Source: Mucilaginibacter aquatilis (lineage in GTDB: Bacteria; Bacteroidota; Bacteroidia; Sphingobacteriales; Sphingobacteriaceae). From it: a stretch of 64,000 nt of DNA. Of the stretch, positions 14,269 to 52,619 are shown piece by piece (the stretch's first letter is position 1; every line of letters starts with the position of its first letter). The notes below the pieces were generated by a model. The model was not told the DNA's origin. It did no database searches and was given only the letters and a program-made list of their open reading frames with translations. The DNA lies in assembly GCF_009755275.1 (NCBI RefSeq), contig NZ_WQLA01000004.1, forward strand, positions 1 to 64,000. The letters are read 5' to 3'. A program made the translations under genes and the position numbers.

Positions 14269-14385
14269 TTCGGGATTTGGGACGTTTGATGTCGGATTTA
14301 TGTAAACCAGCGGGCTAAGCTAAAGGTTTTTCCTGATTTGAATTTCGGATGTTAGATTGCAGGATTATGTTTAAATCAGAATTGC
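14269..14385. repeat. Degenerate GATTTCGGATTT-like low-complexity intergenic repeat
   Basis: Intergenic sequence made of variations on ATTTCGGGATTTGGGACG, GTCGGATTTA and AATTTCGGATGTTAGATTG. Such degenerate tandem stretches recur between genes in Sphingobacteriaceae, from memory. No gene is visible in it. Confidence 0.35.
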
Positions 14386-42961: not shown

Positions 42962-43744
42962 TTACTCAACCCTGTATTGCCCCTCTCCCATTTTGATGAT
43001 ACACTGACTTAACAGCTCATAAATTTCTTTTAAAACAGGCTCATTGTCCAACAAGTGAATGTGCGCATCCATCGTATTTTTATCGTTACGTATTGCTGGG
43101 CCGGTTTGCACTTTGGCCGGTAATTGAAACTGTACTTTTTCAGCGGTTTCCAAAATAAGCGGGCGCATTAAATTAAAATCTAACTGATGCGTGGCTAAAA
43201 GCTCCTGTGCAATATTGTACAAGTAATTAGGAAAATTGCATGCAAATACCGCCGCCAAATGCAACCTTTTACGTTGTGCCGAATTGACTTCGCTAACGTT
43301 GCTGCTAATGGTGTAAGCAAGCTCTTTTAACATAGCGGTAAGATCTTCATATGCACCCTCAATGCATAACGGCACCATGCTAAAATTTACCTCTCTTATT
43401 TTGCTGAAGGTTTGCAATGGATAGAAAACTCCTGCATGTTCGGTATATTTTAACAAAACCTGTATAGGTGTAGCACCCGATGTATGAACTATAGGTTTTT
43501 GATGTACTGCTAGCTGTGACGCAACACTATCTATCACGCTGTCACTTGTGCTGATGATAAACAAATCTGTCTCTGCACTAACCATCATCAAATCATCAAT
43601 GGCGTCTGCTTTGAGGTGATACGCCAACAGAGCAGCATTCTGCTGATTGCGACTGTAAACCTGTACTATGTAATGGCCCGCATTTTTAAGAGCAGCACCT
43701 AAATGGGTAGCTACGTTACCTGAGCCGATGAGGGTGATACGCAT
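42962..43744 (-). CDS. DUF2520 Rossmann-fold protein
   Basis: A 260-residue protein with an N-terminal NAD(P)-binding Rossmann domain (RITLIGSGNVATHLGAAL, 2-19) and a C-terminal DUF2520 helical domain (about 130-260, FACNFPNYLYNIAQELLATH). It resembles the pyrroline-5-carboxylate reductase/6-phosphogluconate dehydrogenase group. Function unknown. Its start overlaps the end of the PhyH gene by 34 nt, so it is probably translated from the same transcript. Confidence 0.9.
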   Translation of the reverse strand: MRITLIGSGNVATHLGAALKNAGHYIVQVYSRNQQNAALLAYHLKADAIDDLMMVSAETDLFIISTSDSVIDSVASQLAVHQKPIVHTSGATPIQVLLKYTEHAGVFYPLQTFSKIREVNFSMVPLCIEGAYEDLTAMLKELAYTISSNVSEVNSAQRKRLHLAAVFACNFPNYLYNIAQELLATHQLDFNLMRPLILETAEKVQFQLPAKVQTGPAIRNDKNTMDAHIHLLDNEPVLKEIYELLSQCIIKMGEGQYRVE

Positions 43745-44466
43745 GATTCAAAAGTAATTATCTTCTCCGCCCAGTCCAACGTGTTAGGTAAATTGAACTT
43801 ACTAAATTCGACATGCACTACTCTCCTTCTATTATTGCCCGTACTCCGGCTTGATGCGTGTAGCAGCAAAGGACGCATAATCATAATGCCACCTTTTGGC
43901 ACATCACAAGTAGCTTCATGCTCTTTGCTCCAGTCAATAGTTTCCGGACGGTAAATGCCTTTTGAGTGTGAACCGGGTACTACTCGCAGTGCACCGTTAG
44001 TCTGGTCGGTATCGTCGAGGTGAATGCGGATAGTGAAGTTTTGTTCAAGTATTTCTAACGGTGGTTGTACAGCGAATTGGTTTTGCTTTACCGTCCACGG
44101 ACCATAGCCCGGTAAGTTGGCAAGTTTATCAACCGAAATAGTTAAATCCTGATGATAAGCAACAAACCAATTAGATTTTTCAGGCTTGTCAAAATAAATG
44201 GATTTTACCAAAAAATAGTCATCACTAAACAGCGTTTCAATTAGTCCTTTGAGTGCTTTATTTAAAATTAAAGTTTTAACCTCCGGTACCTCTTTTAGAA
44301 ACTGCCTGATGGCAAACAGATCATCGGTTTTGCGAAAAGTTGTATTGCCAGTATCAGCCTTGCTTATTTGATTAAGAATGGTTTTAACTTCATACTCGCT
44401 AAAGACATTGCCGATGATGGTGAACCCATCATCGGCAATGTTCTTTAAATGAAGCCGCTTATCCAT
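43711..44466 (-). CDS. Phytanoyl-CoA dioxygenase (PhyH) family protein
   Basis: Fe(II)/2-oxoglutarate-dependent oxygenase of 251 residues, a cupin-type PhyH enzyme. The iron site is made by YHQDLTI (His-x-Asp, about 123-125) and a distal His in LLLHASSRS, with a 2-oxoglutarate-binding Arg after it (RRVVHVEFS). LDDTDQTNGALRVVPGSH is the family core. Substrate not known. It begins at 44466 where ATG overlaps the last base of the ccmF stop, implying translational coupling. Confidence 0.9.
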   Translation of the reverse strand: MDKRLHLKNIADDGFTIIGNVFSEYEVKTILNQISKADTGNTTFRKTDDLFAIRQFLKEVPEVKTLILNKALKGLIETLFSDDYFLVKSIYFDKPEKSNWFVAYHQDLTISVDKLANLPGYGPWTVKQNQFAVQPPLEILEQNFTIRIHLDDTDQTNGALRVVPGSHSKGIYRPETIDWSKEHEATCDVPKGGIMIMRPLLLHASSRSTGNNRRRVVHVEFSKFNLPNTLDWAEKIITFESCVSPSSAQVT

Positions 44467-46931
44467 TAGCTAACTTTAAGCTCTTTATTCCTCCTGAATA
44501 TTGACATTAGAAATCCAATAACCATTATAATGGTGCCCGACCAAAAAAAGTTGATGTAAGGGAACTCAATGGCCCGCATTACAATGTATGATTTTTCGCT
44601 TTCGGGTTGCTCTAATACCGTAATTTCAAATTTATTGTCAGATGGAATTATTTTAGTGAAACGAATTTTCAAACCGGCATCGTCAACTTTACGTGCGAAG
44701 TCAAATGTATTTCCTCCTTTTATCATGAACACAGGCTCCGCCTTGTAAGTTTTATCGTGCGAATACACATCCAGCATAGCACCAACTGCTACATCGTTTT
44801 TACCTAAAGGTATATTCTGTAATTTAGGAGACTTGTTAAGATTACGCAATATCATGTAACCTTCTCTGAAACGGATGGTATCACCTAAACCAACTTCGTG
44901 TACAACAGGTGGGTTATATTTTTTATCGTCACCTGCATGATCTTCTGCAACCTCGGTAGCGCCGGCAGCCAAATCCTGCTCCTGCTTAATAGGCGCTGCT
45001 GTTATGTGCGTATATAAATCGCGAAACAAATAGTGCTTTGTATCAGGAGATGACACCAAACCCATTTTAGCGTTAGCCTGCGAGTTAGGTTTTAAAACAA
45101 AATGCTCAATTACATTACCTGTTGCATCAACTTTTTTGTAATCAACTAAAAAGTAATGGTTAGGCGCTACAAGTGAATCGCCAACGTATGTCACTTTATA
45201 GCCACCCATGTCTACGGGCTGATTTTTGTAGAGCATTATATTTTCGCGTGCGTCACCAGCTTTGTCAAAGTCTTTCACCTGTATAACACCGCTTTCATTT
45301 TTTGATACTACCCTGCTGGTACCTGCAGCTATTAATGCGCCAACCAACAATAAGGCAAAACCAATGTGAGCAACCGCAGAGCCGGCTAATTTGAACTTAC
45401 CTTTAAGTGAGTCGGCAAGTATTTTAGCATTGGCTAGCACGCCGTAAACCGAACCAAACATAGCCAGCATAAATACAACCTTAAGCTTATACAAGCCGGT
45501 TATATAAATGATAATTGCACTGATGATGGCAGCCACTACCAGGTATACCAACGTACTAATGAAGAATTTGGCAGGTTCGGTTCTTTTGTATTTCAGAAAT
45601 TGAGTAAAACCTAAAAACAAAGTCACCACTACAGCAAACCCTGCCTGAAAGATATTATATAACGTAATAGGATTTGCCGGAGGAGCGATTTTAGTACCGA
45701 ATATTGCATTCCACACCGGGAAAGATGTGACGATAACCAATTGCAAACATGATAACGCCAGGAATGATGACCCCACGAATACCCAAAATTCACGCGAGTA
45801 AGTTTCTTCTTCCTTTTTTGAGAACGGAAGATCTTTCCAACGCCATATGAGTAAACCCACCATAATACTAAGAAAAACAAGCACATCAATTACCAGGTGC
45901 CAGAACATACCAAGGTCGGTAAAAGCATGTACTGATGTTTCGCCAAGGATGCCGCTACGTGTTAAAAATGAAGCGTAAAGCACCAGCACGAAGCTCAACA
46001 TGGTGAGCAAGGTGGCGGTGAAGTATGAGTGTCCTGTGTTTTTATAAACAATTAATACGTGAACTGCCGCAATTAGAACCAGCCATGGAATAAGCGAAGC
46101 ATTTTCTACCGGGTCCCAGTTCCAGAAACCGCCAAAGTTAAGCGATTCGTATGCCCAAAATGAACCCATGATGATACCAGTTCCCAAAATCATTACCGCA
46201 AATAAGGCGTAAGGAATTGCAGCGGCAACCCATTCCTTGTATCTGCGCTGCCATAAACCCGCTACCGCATAGGCAAACGGAACAATCATCGAAGCAAAGC
46301 CCAAAAACAGGGTTGGTGGGTGAATAACCATCCAGTAATTTTGCAGCAAGGGATTCAATCCATTACCATCTTTTATATACTGTAAATAATCAGGCCGGCT
46401 GAATATTGGTGCTTCAATAGCATCGCGCAGCATAATAAAAGGTGAGCTGCCTATGCGTTCGCCAAACATTTCAACTCCGATAAGCATTGAACTTAGCAAT
46501 ACTTGTGACAAGCTTACCACAGCCATTACAGGCCGTTCCCATGATTTAGCTTTCCAGATAAGTACATTACCTAATAATGCTTGCCAAAAAGTCCATAACC
46601 AAAAGCTGCCTTCCTGCCCTTCCCAATAACTGGATATGATGTAGTAGACCGGCAACGTGCGCGATGAGTGCGCCCAAGCATAGTGGTACTCAAATAAATT
46701 ATTGTAAATGATATAAAACAGGCAGCAACCAATAGCAACCACCGAAAAGGTATTTACAAAAAATGCCGCGCGGGCTATGCGGAACCAGGATTGATCAGAA
46801 AGATCAGACTGTTGTTTTGCAGAAAAAAAGTAACTGATGGCAGCAAGCAATGCCGAGCCAAAGGACAGGATAACAAAAGCCTGCCCAAGGTGCCCCGGTA
46901 AAAGGTGCTCCCCTGTAAAAACTGTGTTCAT
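44466..46931 (-). CDS. ccmF: Cytochrome c maturation haem lyase subunit CcmF
   Basis: Inner membrane protein (821 residues, about 15 membrane segments) that attaches haem to apocytochrome c in system I. The WWD haem-handling signature is present as GGFWNWDPVENASLIPWL (267-284). SYWEGQEGSFWLW (101-113) and conserved HPPTLFLG (His204) also fit. It is longer than the E. coli protein (about 650) because of a C-terminal periplasmic extension (about 540-790) typical of Bacteroidota. Next to ccmE on the same strand, 9 nt apart. Confidence 0.94.
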   Translation of the reverse strand: MNTVFTGEHLLPGHLGQAFVILSFGSALLAAISYFFSAKQQSDLSDQSWFRIARAAFFVNTFSVVAIGCCLFYIIYNNLFEYHYAWAHSSRTLPVYYIISSYWEGQEGSFWLWTFWQALLGNVLIWKAKSWERPVMAVVSLSQVLLSSMLIGVEMFGERIGSSPFIMLRDAIEAPIFSRPDYLQYIKDGNGLNPLLQNYWMVIHPPTLFLGFASMIVPFAYAVAGLWQRRYKEWVAAAIPYALFAVMILGTGIIMGSFWAYESLNFGGFWNWDPVENASLIPWLVLIAAVHVLIVYKNTGHSYFTATLLTMLSFVLVLYASFLTRSGILGETSVHAFTDLGMFWHLVIDVLVFLSIMVGLLIWRWKDLPFSKKEEETYSREFWVFVGSSFLALSCLQLVIVTSFPVWNAIFGTKIAPPANPITLYNIFQAGFAVVVTLFLGFTQFLKYKRTEPAKFFISTLVYLVVAAIISAIIIYITGLYKLKVVFMLAMFGSVYGVLANAKILADSLKGKFKLAGSAVAHIGFALLLVGALIAAGTSRVVSKNESGVIQVKDFDKAGDARENIMLYKNQPVDMGGYKVTYVGDSLVAPNHYFLVDYKKVDATGNVIEHFVLKPNSQANAKMGLVSSPDTKHYLFRDLYTHITAAPIKQEQDLAAGATEVAEDHAGDDKKYNPPVVHEVGLGDTIRFREGYMILRNLNKSPKLQNIPLGKNDVAVGAMLDVYSHDKTYKAEPVFMIKGGNTFDFARKVDDAGLKIRFTKIIPSDNKFEITVLEQPESEKSYIVMRAIEFPYINFFWSGTIIMVIGFLMSIFRRNKELKVS

Positions 46932-46940
46932 TAAGTAAGA

Positions 46941-47351
46941 TTATAAGTTAGCTTGTTTGGCAGAAACCTCGGTTACCTCAAGCTTATCTTCGGTATATTT
47001 AGACGGGCACTTCATTAAAATTTTTGAGGCATGAAACTCCCTGCCCCTCATTTGTCCGGTAAGCACTATTTGCTCAGAACGCTCAAAATCCTGCGGCTTT
47101 GTTCCGGTAAATACCACTTTGCATTCCTCGCCCTTATTGTCAAGCATATAAAATGAAAAGTAATTGGCATCTTTAGTAGGATCGTAGTACAGCTCTTTGT
47201 TTTTAACCAAATGGCCTACCACATGCAACTCCTCAGTAGTGGCACCTGCATCTTTAAATGAACCGTAAGTACTTGTATTTGAATATGTACTGATGATAAC
47301 TGCTATAGCAATAGCAATTACAATAATACCTAAAATAGAACTTTTCTTCAT
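46941..47351 (-). CDS. ccmE: Cytochrome c maturation haem chaperone CcmE (CxxxY type)
   Basis: Periplasmic haem chaperone that carries haem from CcmC to CcmF. 136 residues: N-terminal anchor (about 5-22), then an OB-fold beta domain (VVGHLVKNKELYYD, FTGTKPQDFE) and the terminal haem motif. In E. coli CcmE the covalent haem ligand is His130 in a HxxxY motif. Here the corresponding segment reads ILMKCPSKYTE, so the residue is Cys115 with Tyr119 (CxxxY). This variant is known from archaea and Desulfovibrio. The codon is at 47007-47009. Confidence 0.9.
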   Translation of the reverse strand: MKKSSILGIIVIAIAIAVIISTYSNTSTYGSFKDAGATTEELHVVGHLVKNKELYYDPTKDANYFSFYMLDNKGEECKVVFTGTKPQDFERSEQIVLTGQMRGREFHASKILMKCPSKYTEDKLEVTEVSAKQANL

Positions 47352-47458: not shown

Positions 47459-48073
47459 TTAACGCATAGCCTTGTACATCTTTTCAAGATCAATGTAGTT
47501 GTTATACTGCATAAAAGTTTTGCCTACCTGTGTCAACAAGCCCTTACTTTGTGCTTCATCTGCCCCTTTCATCAGCGGTGAATTGATGCTCAACACCCTG
47601 CCGTAACTGTATGTGCACAAGTAAGTTTGCTTAACTACGTTTGATTGGTCTCCCTCAGGCAAATAGTATGTCCAGAACAGATACGGTTTATTATTAAGCG
47701 TTATCCACTCTGTTGTGCTTACCAGGTTATCTACCTTCAAAATCTTCTTAGCGTAATCAATTTCCGACTGTACATAGCCTAAAACAAGTTCCTTTTGCTT
47801 ATCAGGTGTGCGCGATAGTGTATCATTGATAACAGGTGTAAATGCAAACTGCAAAACCTGGGTACCAACCAATATAACGTACGGGTGCTCTGTGGCTTTA
47901 ACCTCGCTGGACGCTACATCCAGTGTAAGCGCACGCTTGCGGCTAGTGTAAGCTACCCTTGCACCAAACTTGGTTTTAATTATCCCGGTTTCGAAGTACT
48001 CGGGTGGAGCGTTTTGTGCAAATGAACAGGTTGCATATAACATTAAGGCAAGCACGCCCGGTATAAATCTCAT
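47459..48073 (-). CDS. Secreted protein of unknown function
   Basis: A 204-residue exported protein. The start at 48073 gives a signal peptide of 20 residues ending CSFAQ; a frame opening at 48115 runs ahead of it. The mature part is beta-rich with charged regions (GARVAYTSRKRALTLDVASS, WTYYLPEGDQSNVVKQTYL). I do not recognise the family. It lies between glutamate dehydrogenase and ccmE in the ccm region, but nothing shows a role in haem maturation. Confidence 0.7.
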   Translation of the reverse strand: MRFIPGVLALMLYATCSFAQNAPPEYFETGIIKTKFGARVAYTSRKRALTLDVASSEVKATEHPYVILVGTQVLQFAFTPVINDTLSRTPDKQKELVLGYVQSEIDYAKKILKVDNLVSTTEWITLNNKPYLFWTYYLPEGDQSNVVKQTYLCTYSYGRVLSINSPLMKGADEAQSKGLLTQVGKTFMQYNNYIDLEKMYKAMR

Positions 48074-48108
48074 TAGTTTGATTAGTGAATTTGTAAATGC
48101 GTATTTAA

Positions 48109-48145
48109 CAAACAAAAATAGCGATAACCATTAGGGTTATCGCTA
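48109..48145 (-). terminator. Rho-independent terminator of glutamate dehydrogenase
   Basis: On the minus strand an 11-bp perfect stem (TAGCGATAACC 48119-48129 with GGTTATCGCTA 48135-48145, 5-nt loop) is followed by TTTTTGTTTG. It follows the gdh stop (48187) by about 40 nt. Confidence 0.9.
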
Positions 48146-48186: not shown

Positions 48187-49620
48187 TTACGGCCAAACAC
48201 CTAAATTTTGGTATGATACCGCAATTTTATTTATTGCGCCAACAAAAGCAGCAACACGAAGCGTTTTTGCCTCCGGATTATTGCGTAAAGTCTCGCGTAT
48301 CTCATGGTATGAGCGAATCATAGTATCCTCCAAACCAGAGTTAACCAATTCAAGCTCAGTAGCGCCTTTAATAATAGTTTCGCGCTGAAGCGGAGTTAAT
48401 GAAACGCCGGTAATGCCTTCAACCATGTTAACTATGTTCAAGTTCGAGTTTTCTTCAAATCTGCGGTTCATACGACCGAATGAAACGTGTGAAAGATTTT
48501 TTAACCACTCAAAATATGAAACGGTTACACCGCCGGCATTGGCATACATATCAGGTACGATTATGCCGCCGTTTTCGTAGAAAATGGCTTCTGCTTCAGG
48601 TGTAGTTGGTCCGTTTGCACCCTCAACTATAATTTTAGCTTGTAGGTTACGAACGTTTTCAATTGTAATTTGATTTTCTAATGCAGCCGGTACCAGTATA
48701 TCACATGGCTGCTCAAGTCCTTCTCCCGAACGGGTAAATTCCTTTGTAGCGCCTGCAAAACCTAATATTGAACCCGTGGCTTTACGGTGTTGAAAAACAG
48801 CTTCATAATCAAGACCATCTTCATTATAGATGGCGCCTTCATATTCGCATAAGCCAACAATGGTTGCGCCAAATTCAGATAGGAACTTAGCAGAGTAGTA
48901 ACCTACATTACCCAAGCCTTGTACAATTACTTTTTTGCCTGTTAACCCGGTTGTTAAACCAAGTTTTTGCATGTCTTCGCCAACGCTAACACATTCCCTG
49001 GCAGCTATGGCAACACCACGGCCGGTAGCTTCTCTTCTGCCTGCAATACCGTGCAGTGCAATCGGCTTTCCGGTAACGCAACCTAATGCATCGCCCTGGT
49101 TAGGGTTCATGGTTGCATAAGTATCAGCAATCCAGCTCATTTCACGCTCGCCTGATCCATAATCTGGTGCAGGTACGTCAATGCTTGGGCCTAAAAAGTT
49201 TTTCTTGGTAAGTTCTACTGTATAACGGCGGGTGATGTTCTCTAACTCCTGTACCGTGTAGTTTTTTGGATTGATTTTGATACCGCCCTTAGCACCACCA
49301 AATGGTACGTTTACAATAGCACATTTGTAAGTCATTAACGCTGCAAGCGCCATCACCTCATCTTCGTTAACCATTTCACTGTAACGAATACCACCTTTGG
49401 TAGGCGATTGGTGATGCGAATGCTCAACGCGCCATGCATCAATAACTTCAAAGCCGTCACCTTTACGTATAGGAAAGCGAAAACGGTAAACACTGTTACA
49501 TGATTTAATTTGATCTAATAAACCGGCATCGTGTTTGGTAAATTGAGCTGCGTGATCAAAATTGGCGCACACATCTGAAAAGAAATGAGTGTCCTGATCG
49601 GATATAATTAAATTGCTCAT
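48187..49620 (-). CDS. Glu/Leu/Phe/Val dehydrogenase (glutamate dehydrogenase)
   Basis: Interconverts glutamate and 2-oxoglutarate plus ammonia with NAD(P). 477 residues: TKGGIRYSE (74-82), catalytic-lysine segment [19 protein letters not shown] (96-114), and the Rossmann loop [14 protein letters not shown]. The ordering is typical of hexameric GDHs. It sits inside the ccm region on the minus strand, but with its own terminator and no obvious link. Substrate class inferred from similarity. Confidence 0.93.
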
Positions 49621-49706: not shown

Positions 49707-49910
49707 TTAGTCTTTGTGCTTTTCAATACGGTTTAAACGCCTGTCCATACTAAACAGGTATAAAGCCAGGCCAACAAATACAATAACTATGGTGCCTATA
49801 ACAACATATATTTTTCCTTCGCTCCGCATAGTATCAGCCATTTCAACATCTTGTGCAAATGCGCCTAAATAGCCCATCAGCAATACGGCTAAACAAGTAA
49901 GTTTCTTCAT
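49707..49910 (-). CDS. CcmD-like small membrane protein
   Basis: A 67-residue protein with an N-terminal cleavable-type hydrophobic stretch (LTCLAVLLMGYLGAFAQ) and one membrane helix (about 32-51, IYVVIGTIVIVFVGLALYLF) followed by a basic tail (SMDRRLNRIEKHKD). This is the arrangement of CcmD-family proteins in Bacteroidota. It lies 6 nt after ccmC on the same strand, and probably helps stabilise the haem exporter. Assignment is by position and topology more than sequence. Confidence 0.75.
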   Translation of the reverse strand: MKKLTCLAVLLMGYLGAFAQDVEMADTMRSEGKIYVVIGTIVIVFVGLALYLFSMDRRLNRIEKHKD

Positions 49911-49916
49911 GATGAT

Positions 49917-50588
49917 TTATAAGGAGTTGTTTTTATTTTCGATTAAACGTATACGGTAACGCAAAGTTGCAATCCACAAAGCAATAAGCATCCAGCCTAT
50001 AAATGCAGGATATAACACGGCACGCATTTCATTGGTCATATCATACTTACCAAAGGCCGGGTTACCACCATTACCCGGGTGTAACGAATCAGTTAAGCGT
50101 GGCAGTATAAATAACAAAACCAACATTATCGGGAAAGCAAATATGTTGTAGATGGCCGAAATACGTGCACGCTTTTGCTCTTCATCTATGGCGTTACGCA
50201 AGACCAAGTAAGCACAGTAAAGCAAAAAAGCAATTGCGGCACTGTTTTGTTTAGGATCATTACTCCAGTATTGCCCCCAGGTATACCGGGCCCAAAGCAT
50301 GCCGCTTAGCAATCCTAAAATATAAAATATAATACCGGTGTTAACGCTTTCAATGGCAATTAAATCATACTCTTCCTTGCCAGTGGCTAAATAGCGCACA
50401 CTGTAAAAAACCGATACACCAAACACCAAAAACATTGCCATCCACATGGGCACGTGGAAGTATACATTGCGTATGGTTTCGTGTAAAATAGGCAATCTAG
50501 GAACAGTTAGCATGAACCCGGCCACCAGTGTATACATCACCAGCACAACGCCTAAAATTTTCCACCAACTTTGATATATAAATTTCAT
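49917..50588 (-). CDS. ccmC: Cytochrome c biogenesis protein CcmC/CcsA
   Basis: Inner membrane haem-handling protein of about 223 residues with six membrane segments, starting at 50588 (MKFIYQSWWKILG). The periplasmic WWD-type segment is WARYTWGQYWSNDPKQNSAA; the third Trp of the usual WGxxWxWD is Asn here. Conserved histidines are in VYFHVPMWM and elsewhere. It is the third gene of a ccmB-ccmC-ccmD-like order, though a carboxypeptidase-like gene separates it from ccmB. Promoter-like box at 50604-50611. Confidence 0.88.
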   Translation of the reverse strand: MKFIYQSWWKILGVVLVMYTLVAGFMLTVPRLPILHETIRNVYFHVPMWMAMFLVFGVSVFYSVRYLATGKEEYDLIAIESVNTGIIFYILGLLSGMLWARYTWGQYWSNDPKQNSAAIAFLLYCAYLVLRNAIDEEQKRARISAIYNIFAFPIMLVLLFILPRLTDSLHPGNGGNPAFGKYDMTNEMRAVLYPAFIGWMLIALWIATLRYRIRLIENKNNSL

Positions 50589-50603
50589 ATAAAATTCAAC
50601 GCG

Positions 50604-50611
50604 CAAAGGTA
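50604..50611 (-). promoter_or_regulatory. Candidate -7 box for ccmC
   Basis: TACCTTTG on the minus strand matches TAnnTTTG and is 15 nt upstream of the ccmC start codon (50588). No -33 was found at the usual spacing. Confidence 0.4.
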
Positions 50612-51935: not shown

Positions 51936-52619
51936 TCAATCGCGCCATAAAAACGGAAACAATATAAGAGATACTGCTATCACTATCACATTAATTGCAC
52001 CCAGTACACCAAAGTTACCATAAGTAAGACTGCGTTCAACACCATCCATAGCACTCTTACTAATTTTTACCAGCAACATAATTACAGGTATTATCACCGG
52101 GAAACTCAATATAGCCATTAAAGTTCCGTTGTTACCGGCTTTGGCTGCTATAGCCGAAACCATAGTAAATACAGTAGAAAACGTTACACTGCCTGATAAC
52201 ACCACCAGGAAATACCATAAGGCATCGCCAACGTTATTAGTAAAAAAAAGGATGTAAACTATGAGCGCCAATGTGCTTAACAAACCCATGAGCAAGGCGT
52301 TGTAGACTGTTTTAGATAAAATTATAGCATGCGGACTTGCAATGGTGTAGTAATAAAGCAGACGACTTCGGCTTTCTTGAAGGAAACTTTTAGCAATGGC
52401 GTTTACAGAAGCAAACAGGATGATTATCCAAAACAATACGTTCCAAACTACAGGGTACCCTTGACTTTTTGTAAAGCCGGGCGTTAAATTAAACGCTATA
52501 TAACAAACAAAAACGGTAGAAACAATATAAAGCAACACCCCGTTGAATGCATATTTAGAGCGCCACTCCAATAATATTTCTTTCCTGAGCAAATAGCCTG
52601 TTTGGCGCAATAATTTCAT
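51936..52619 (-). CDS. ccmB: Haem exporter protein CcmB
   Basis: Membrane subunit of the CcmAB ABC transporter of system I cytochrome c maturation. 227 residues with six hydrophobic segments, the opening LRKEILLEWRSKYAFNG (11-27) and a central FASVNAIAKSFLQESRSRL which match CcmB. The ATPase partner ccmA is not in the window. It starts at 52619 just 6 nt from a -7-like TATATTTG (52625-52632), so the message may be leaderless. Confidence 0.88.
   Translation of the reverse strand: MKLLRQTGYLLRKEILLEWRSKYAFNGVLLYIVSTVFVCYIAFNLTPGFTKSQGYPVVWNVLFWIIILFASVNAIAKSFLQESRSRLLYYYTIASPHAIILSKTVYNALLMGLLSTLALIVYILFFTNNVGDALWYFLVVLSGSVTFSTVFTMVSAIAAKAGNNGTLMAILSFPVIIPVIMLLVKISKSAMDGVERSLTYGNFGVLGAINVIVIAVSLILFPFLWRD

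Follow-up and report, generated by a model that had tools for sequence, protein, structure and literature searches.

A cytochrome c maturation gene of Mucilaginibacter aquatilis raised the question of which residue of its product, CcmE, would carry haem and to which maturation system the gene would belong. The gene lies in a stretch of 64,000 nucleotides that was analysed as a whole (the window).

Identification of the CcmE gene

A first-pass annotation of the window had reported a CcmE with a CxxxY motif at 46941-47351. Both the identity and the coordinates held, as the Pfam match and the reading of a CPSKY motif showed, and the strand, which had been left unstated, is the minus strand. The ORF starts with an ATG at 47351, ends with a stop at 46941 and encodes 136 aa; the first plus-strand frame of the same interval is full of stops. 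The protein scored 52 bits with the Pfam CcmE model, for which the cut-off is 24.6. For CcmE, CcmB, CcmC and CcmF of the window, all NCBIfam matches stayed below the curated cut-offs and only the Pfam cut-offs were passed.

The protein consists of an N-terminal membrane helix, an OB-fold domain and the C-terminal CPSKY, with the ligand segment near the C-terminal end reading ILMKCPSKYTED. The CPSKY codons occupy 46995-47009 on the minus strand, with C115 at 47007-47009 and Y119 at 46995-46997. An AlphaFold2 model showed the N-terminal helix (residues 3-23) and the OB-fold body with a mean pLDDT of 80.9, and residues 117-126, Y119 included, had a pLDDT below 50. A fold search with the model returned CcmE structures at ranks 3, 4, 5, 15 and 24 with weak Foldseek E-values (4e-3 to 3e-2), and unrelated OB folds scored equally well or better.

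Position and conservation of the putative haem ligand

A profile of 23 CcmEs of the phylum Bacteroidota was aligned with E. coli CcmE. The alignment was gap-free at the ligand site and placed C115 on H130 and Y119 on Y134, where the E. coli numbering was counted from the printed alignment range; the claim of the first-pass annotation that Cys115 and Tyr119 stand at the E. coli haem-ligand site was thus confirmed. The best-scoring solved relative of the profile was the Cys-type CcmE of D. vulgaris (2kct, E 1.3e-7), followed by matches with E. coli CcmE (8ce8_E, E 7.5e-7; 1sr3, E 9.6e-7).

Conservation was assessed in 296 genomes drawn evenly from Bacteroidota, among which 193 were CcmE-positive, with one locus read per genome. 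The alignment across the phylum, which had been proposed in the first-pass annotation, showed Cys and Tyr at the ligand site in 193/193 CcmE-positive genomes (CPSKY in 191, CPSRY in 2) and His at the ligand position in none of them. Identity to the window CcmE over residues 29-122 ranged from 29% to 83% among these 193 proteins, with a median of 40%. Since Cys and Tyr were kept in all despite identity down to 29%, the motif is not a product of chance. Eleven CcmE columns were kept in at least 191/193, and five of them are C115 to Y119. The count of 193 leaves out one repeat (L306, the genome and locus of L004), 15 CcmE-like paralogues without the motif and the additional CcmE match that G062 and G294 each had. 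It includes L070, in which the CPSKY-bearing frame of two was counted, and L303, which is cut by a contig end with the motif visible. In L070, a draft genome, the spread of ccmE over two frames reflects a sequencing error or a broken gene.

The same alignment bears on the idea, raised beforehand as the outcome that would overturn a cysteine ligand, that a nearby histidine is the true ligand and Cys115 is structural. The window CcmE does have H43 and H107, the latter in an FHA stretch before the motif, and these are the best other His columns near the CcmE domain. Histidine was found at H43 in only 93/193 and at H107 in 51/193, against Cys at C115 in every protein, and C115 occupies the exact column of E. 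coli H130. As minority columns, neither H43 nor H107 is therefore a general haem ligand, and we regard a histidine ligand as very improbable.

Among the best 80 of 562 relatives, the closest named ones were mostly Mucilaginibacter, then other Sphingobacteriaceae. CPSKY occurred in all of these 80, which lie outside the 193, and was rejected as evidence of conservation because the search pattern contained KCPSKY. Two Mucilaginibacter relatives had a duplicated ccmE; the extra gene was a lipoprotein-like copy without the Cys in one (L152, 5534-5920) and a full tandem copy with CPSKY in the other (L153, 6412-6822).

In 15/193 genomes (L013, L024, L027, L125, L128, L129, L131, L138, L240, L241, L243, L246, L251, L252 and L253), ccmE is accompanied by a further CcmE-like gene, whose product of about 120 aa stops short of the haem-ligand motif. 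It lies downstream of ccmE, about 670 bases off in L013, and has GH(V/T)H in 14/15 and a later (F/V)H(A/T) in 15/15. Without CPSKY, its product is possibly a haem- or metal-binding helper.

The ccm cluster and gene order

All ccm genes of the window are on the minus strand. CcmB (51936-52619, 227 aa), CcmC (49917-50606, 229 aa) and CcmF (44466-46931, 821 aa, with a WWD-type motif) passed their Pfam cut-offs. In CcmC, H51, H176, W110 and W114 were kept in 99-100% of 176 aligned sequences. Directly after ccmC, a ccmD of the CcmD_alt family (PF20077) was identified at 49707-49910 (67 aa, 78.2 bits). The first-pass description of the window as having ccmB, C, E and F and no ccmH was accurate, with this CcmD_alt gene overlooked.

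Between ccmD and ccmE lies a gene at 48187-49620 (minus strand) which we take to be Glu/Leu dehydrogenase-like, and a homologue of it stood before ccmE in 45/211 loci, the own-genome locus included. The complete order ccmB-C-D-E-F was found in 28/211 loci; most others showed partial stretches, many of them limited by the fetched length. Between the dehydrogenase-like gene and ccmE, a 218-aa frame with a signal-peptide-like start was observed at 47459-48115 on the minus strand. It had no Pfam or NCBIfam match and, among the 211 gene-order loci, was present in the own-genome locus only.

The CcmA candidate

No neighbour of ccmB in the window was an ABC gene. In the own genome, the CcmA model TIGR01189 gave 51 ABC matches with none over the cut-off. 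At least ten loci of relatives have an ABC ATPase gene immediately ahead of ccmB, and a CcmA profile was built from eight such ATPases. With this profile, G000:C6:77380-78015 ranked first of 48 ABC matches in the own genome, 28 bits ahead of the next. At E ≤ 1e-30, the candidate was found in 34/34 CcmE-positive genomes of the same class and in 0/20 CcmE-negative genomes (54 compared), the latter belonging to three families only; 12 of its 34 matches span one stop codon. The gene lies between what are presumably lpxA-like and efp-like frames. Judged from the profile scores and this co-occurrence, it is likely to be an unlinked CcmA, on another contig than the ccm cluster.

CcmF and its additional domain

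H204, H291, H335 and H522 of CcmF were invariant in 157 aligned CcmFs. No conserved Cys partner for Cys115 of CcmE was found in the aligned CcmF and CcmC sequences, as the best Cys columns reached 49% of 157 and 23% of 176, respectively. The window CcmF, with 821 residues counted from its ATG, exceeds T. thermophilus CcmF (6zmq, 660 residues) by 161, and relatives had similar lengths (quartiles 812-838 residues in 156 frames, measured from stop to stop). The span from H522 to W797 comprised at least 200 residues in 156/157 aligned CcmFs and in 79/80 full-length frames from the phylum sample.

A model of this part of CcmF showed two beta domains with a mean pLDDT of 85.4. The second (model residues 134-238) matched the periplasmic domain of 6zmq with a Z of 10.7 over 94 residues (2.6 Å) and CcsBA 7s9y with a Z of 8.4 over 89 residues (3.3 Å), and the Foldseek E-values, taken alone, were weak (7s9z, 1.8e-2; 6zmq, 6.0e-2). 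The extra periplasmic domain, at approximately residues 560-660 (44952-45254, minus strand), precedes the domain that matches 6zmq. Alignment of the two domains with hhalign gave a probability of 71.6% over 57 columns with 4% identity, which indicates weak kinship. The enlarged CcmF might make up for the missing CcmH and CcmI, with the extra beta domain holding or positioning the apocytochrome, and we consider this proposal doubtful. According to a 2011 review, bioinformatic work on System I* had not pointed to any compensating features (PMC3601427).

CcmH, ResB and the cytochromes to be matured

A genome-wide search for CcmH, a check suggested at the first pass, gave 0 matches with PF03918 in the own genome, and the same search was positive in 4/14 control genomes. 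In the phylum sample, 7/296 genomes had a PF03918 match, 2 of them over the cut-off, and all seven were CcmE-positive. By eye, six of the matches (L032-L036 and L038) were membrane proteins of the zinc-ribbon type, each containing two Cys-rich stretches that resemble CcmH, and the seventh (L037) lay within a histidine kinase-like frame. All seven were rejected as CcmH of this system because they were on other contigs than ccmE or more than 190 kb away from it, although they may conceivably play some part in it. No recognisable CcmH of this system was therefore found among the 193 CcmE-positive genomes of the 296-genome sample. The zinc-ribbon genes are adjoined by presumably DUF2318-like frames in L033-L036 and L038, with none seen in L032, and stand beside frames that we take for FtsX-like permeases in L034, L035 and L038; these loci are perhaps metal transport loci.

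For CcmG, TIGR00385 gave 16 thioredoxin-fold matches in the own genome; the best scored 60.2 bits, below the cut-off of 123.15, and a remote protein with CcmG function may nevertheless exist. One DsbD-like membrane protein, a 575-aa frame, was found elsewhere in the own genome; the DsbD search was positive in 10/14 controls, and many genomes that lack Ccm have proteins of this type as well. When the window was scanned with a simple CxxC pattern, two matches appeared, one in a 689-aa frame with CHWCH on the minus strand (5' end near 14319), presumably thioredoxin-like, and one in a frame with CSTCH near 43008, assumed to be ferredoxin-like.

Whether the ccm cluster might be a remnant, with the cytochromes matured by another system, was weighed at this point. 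The absence of an ABC gene beside ccmB, the position of the CcmA candidate on another contig and the missing CcmH would agree with decay. However, the search for ResB gave 0 matches in the own genome, all four CcmF histidines and the CcmC histidine pair are kept, and eight PF13442 proteins with CxxCH (one to six motifs per frame) in the own genome need maturation. ResB matched in 119/296 genomes of the phylum sample, 110 over the cut-off, and CcmE and ResB sorted mostly into different genomes: CcmE only in 174, ResB only in 100, both in 19 and neither in 3 (n=296). At least eight of the ResB matches in the 19 double-positive genomes are weak, lie in frames of 786-865 aa and are probably CcmF. 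A relic is thus hardly credible. Overall, the systems seen in the Bacteroidota sample were System I* and System II, with no His-type CcmE.

Proposed haem pathway

The window CcmE very probably belongs to a cytochrome c maturation apparatus of the cysteine type (System I*), with haem loaded on Cys115. By homology with proteins studied by others, and given the gene set, carriage of haem on this cysteine explains the observations best. In this apparatus, CcmA and CcmB together with CcmC and CcmD would load haem onto Cys115 of the membrane-anchored CcmE. Cys115 would most likely be joined to a haem vinyl group by a thioether, and Tyr119 would lie close to the iron or bind it. CcmF, working without CcmH, would then hand haem over to apocytochromes at the thiols of their CxxCH motifs; such transfer without CcmH is what we infer from homologues studied by others. 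Reductant might be supplied by the DsbD-like protein mentioned above.

Haem might also be held by Cys115 through coordination only, without a covalent bond, so that CcmE would act as a chaperone by ligand exchange in a variant of the same system. The nearest structural relative gives this reading some ground, as the best PDB match of the phylum profile is the CcmE of D. vulgaris. That CxxxY-type protein is reported to hold ferric haem by C127 without a covalent bond (PMC3884852). The work on it reportedly relied on a purified domain to which haem was added and not on the full loading machinery, which weighs against coordination only. On the other hand, the CcmE of D. desulfuricans is reported to bind haem covalently (PMC3601427), and that of M. 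acetivorans was haem-stained on gels, with the stain lost in C120A (PMC9084895). Coordination only is hence unlikely, and a covalent bond between Cys115 and haem is likely in the window CcmE, not certain because of the D. vulgaris report. Our searches of the open-licence literature brought up no biochemistry on a Bacteroidota CcmE.

The view taken at the first pass, that haem is carried on a cysteine, stood in so far as Cys115 is at the ligand position, no nearby histidine is a likely ligand and CcmH has no match. The further statement that the haem-transfer chemistry of this lineage differs from the textbook one had to be recast: the system is not new, being the published System I*, and "this lineage" is too narrow since the motif was present in all CcmE-positive genomes sampled from the phylum.

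Comparison with known systems

System I* was described in 2006, has been tested in D. desulfuricans and M. acetivorans with Cys-bound haem demonstrated, and occurs in archaea, Desulfovibrio and other bacteria (PMC3601427, PMC9084895), in agreement with the statement in the first-pass annotation that CxxxY-type CcmE is found in archaea and Desulfovibrio. According to the 2011 review, CPSKY is its majority motif (25/36 bacterial genomes), CcmH is present in about one third of the bacterial System I* genomes, and the hosts named there are delta-proteobacteria, Chloroflexi and Firmicutes (PMC3601427). The swap of Cys and His in CcmE is tolerated by neither System I nor System I*, and with the ccm genes of D. 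desulfuricans, holocytochrome is formed in E. coli even in the absence of CcmH and CcmG (PMC3601427). The same review raised the question of how a Cys-haem thioether is made and then broken (PMC3601427). A phylum-wide Cys-type CcmE without recognised CcmH offers test hosts for it in Mucilaginibacter, Pedobacter and Sphingobacterium. These are culturable genera. In the part of PMC5492636 consulted, the CcmF of Melioribacter is mentioned and its CcmE is not. Our searches of the open-licence literature brought up no description of System I* in Bacteroidota.

The apparatus of the window differs from System II (ResB/CcsA), as the own genome has no ResB match. It resembles the textbook System I of E. 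coli (CcmABCDEFGH) in its CcmB, C, E and F homologues and in the same ligand position, and departs from it in having Cys where E. coli CcmE has the His of HxxxY, no CcmH match and a CcmD assigned to the Pfam family CcmD_alt. With the streamlined Ccm of Methanosarcina acetivorans it shares the CxxxY of CcmE, a CcmABCEF core, in which CcmA is a candidate here, and the lack of CcmH/I (PMC9084895). M. acetivorans has, according to the sections consulted, no CcmD and a CcmF split in two (PMC9084895), whereas CcmD_alt and a one-chain CcmF were found here. There is also a close likeness to System I* of Desulfovibrio desulfuricans and D. vulgaris, with Cys for His and CxxxY in CcmE and no CcmH (PMC3601427); Desulfovibrio is also described there as having no clear CcmG (PMC3601427), and in the window genome no thioredoxin passed the CcmG cut-off. 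The differences from Desulfovibrio are the phylum and the CcmA candidate, which lies away from the ccm cluster. What the present analysis adds to the published System I* is a motif that is invariant throughout the phylum sample, a CcmA candidate without linkage to the ccm cluster, and an additional domain in CcmF.
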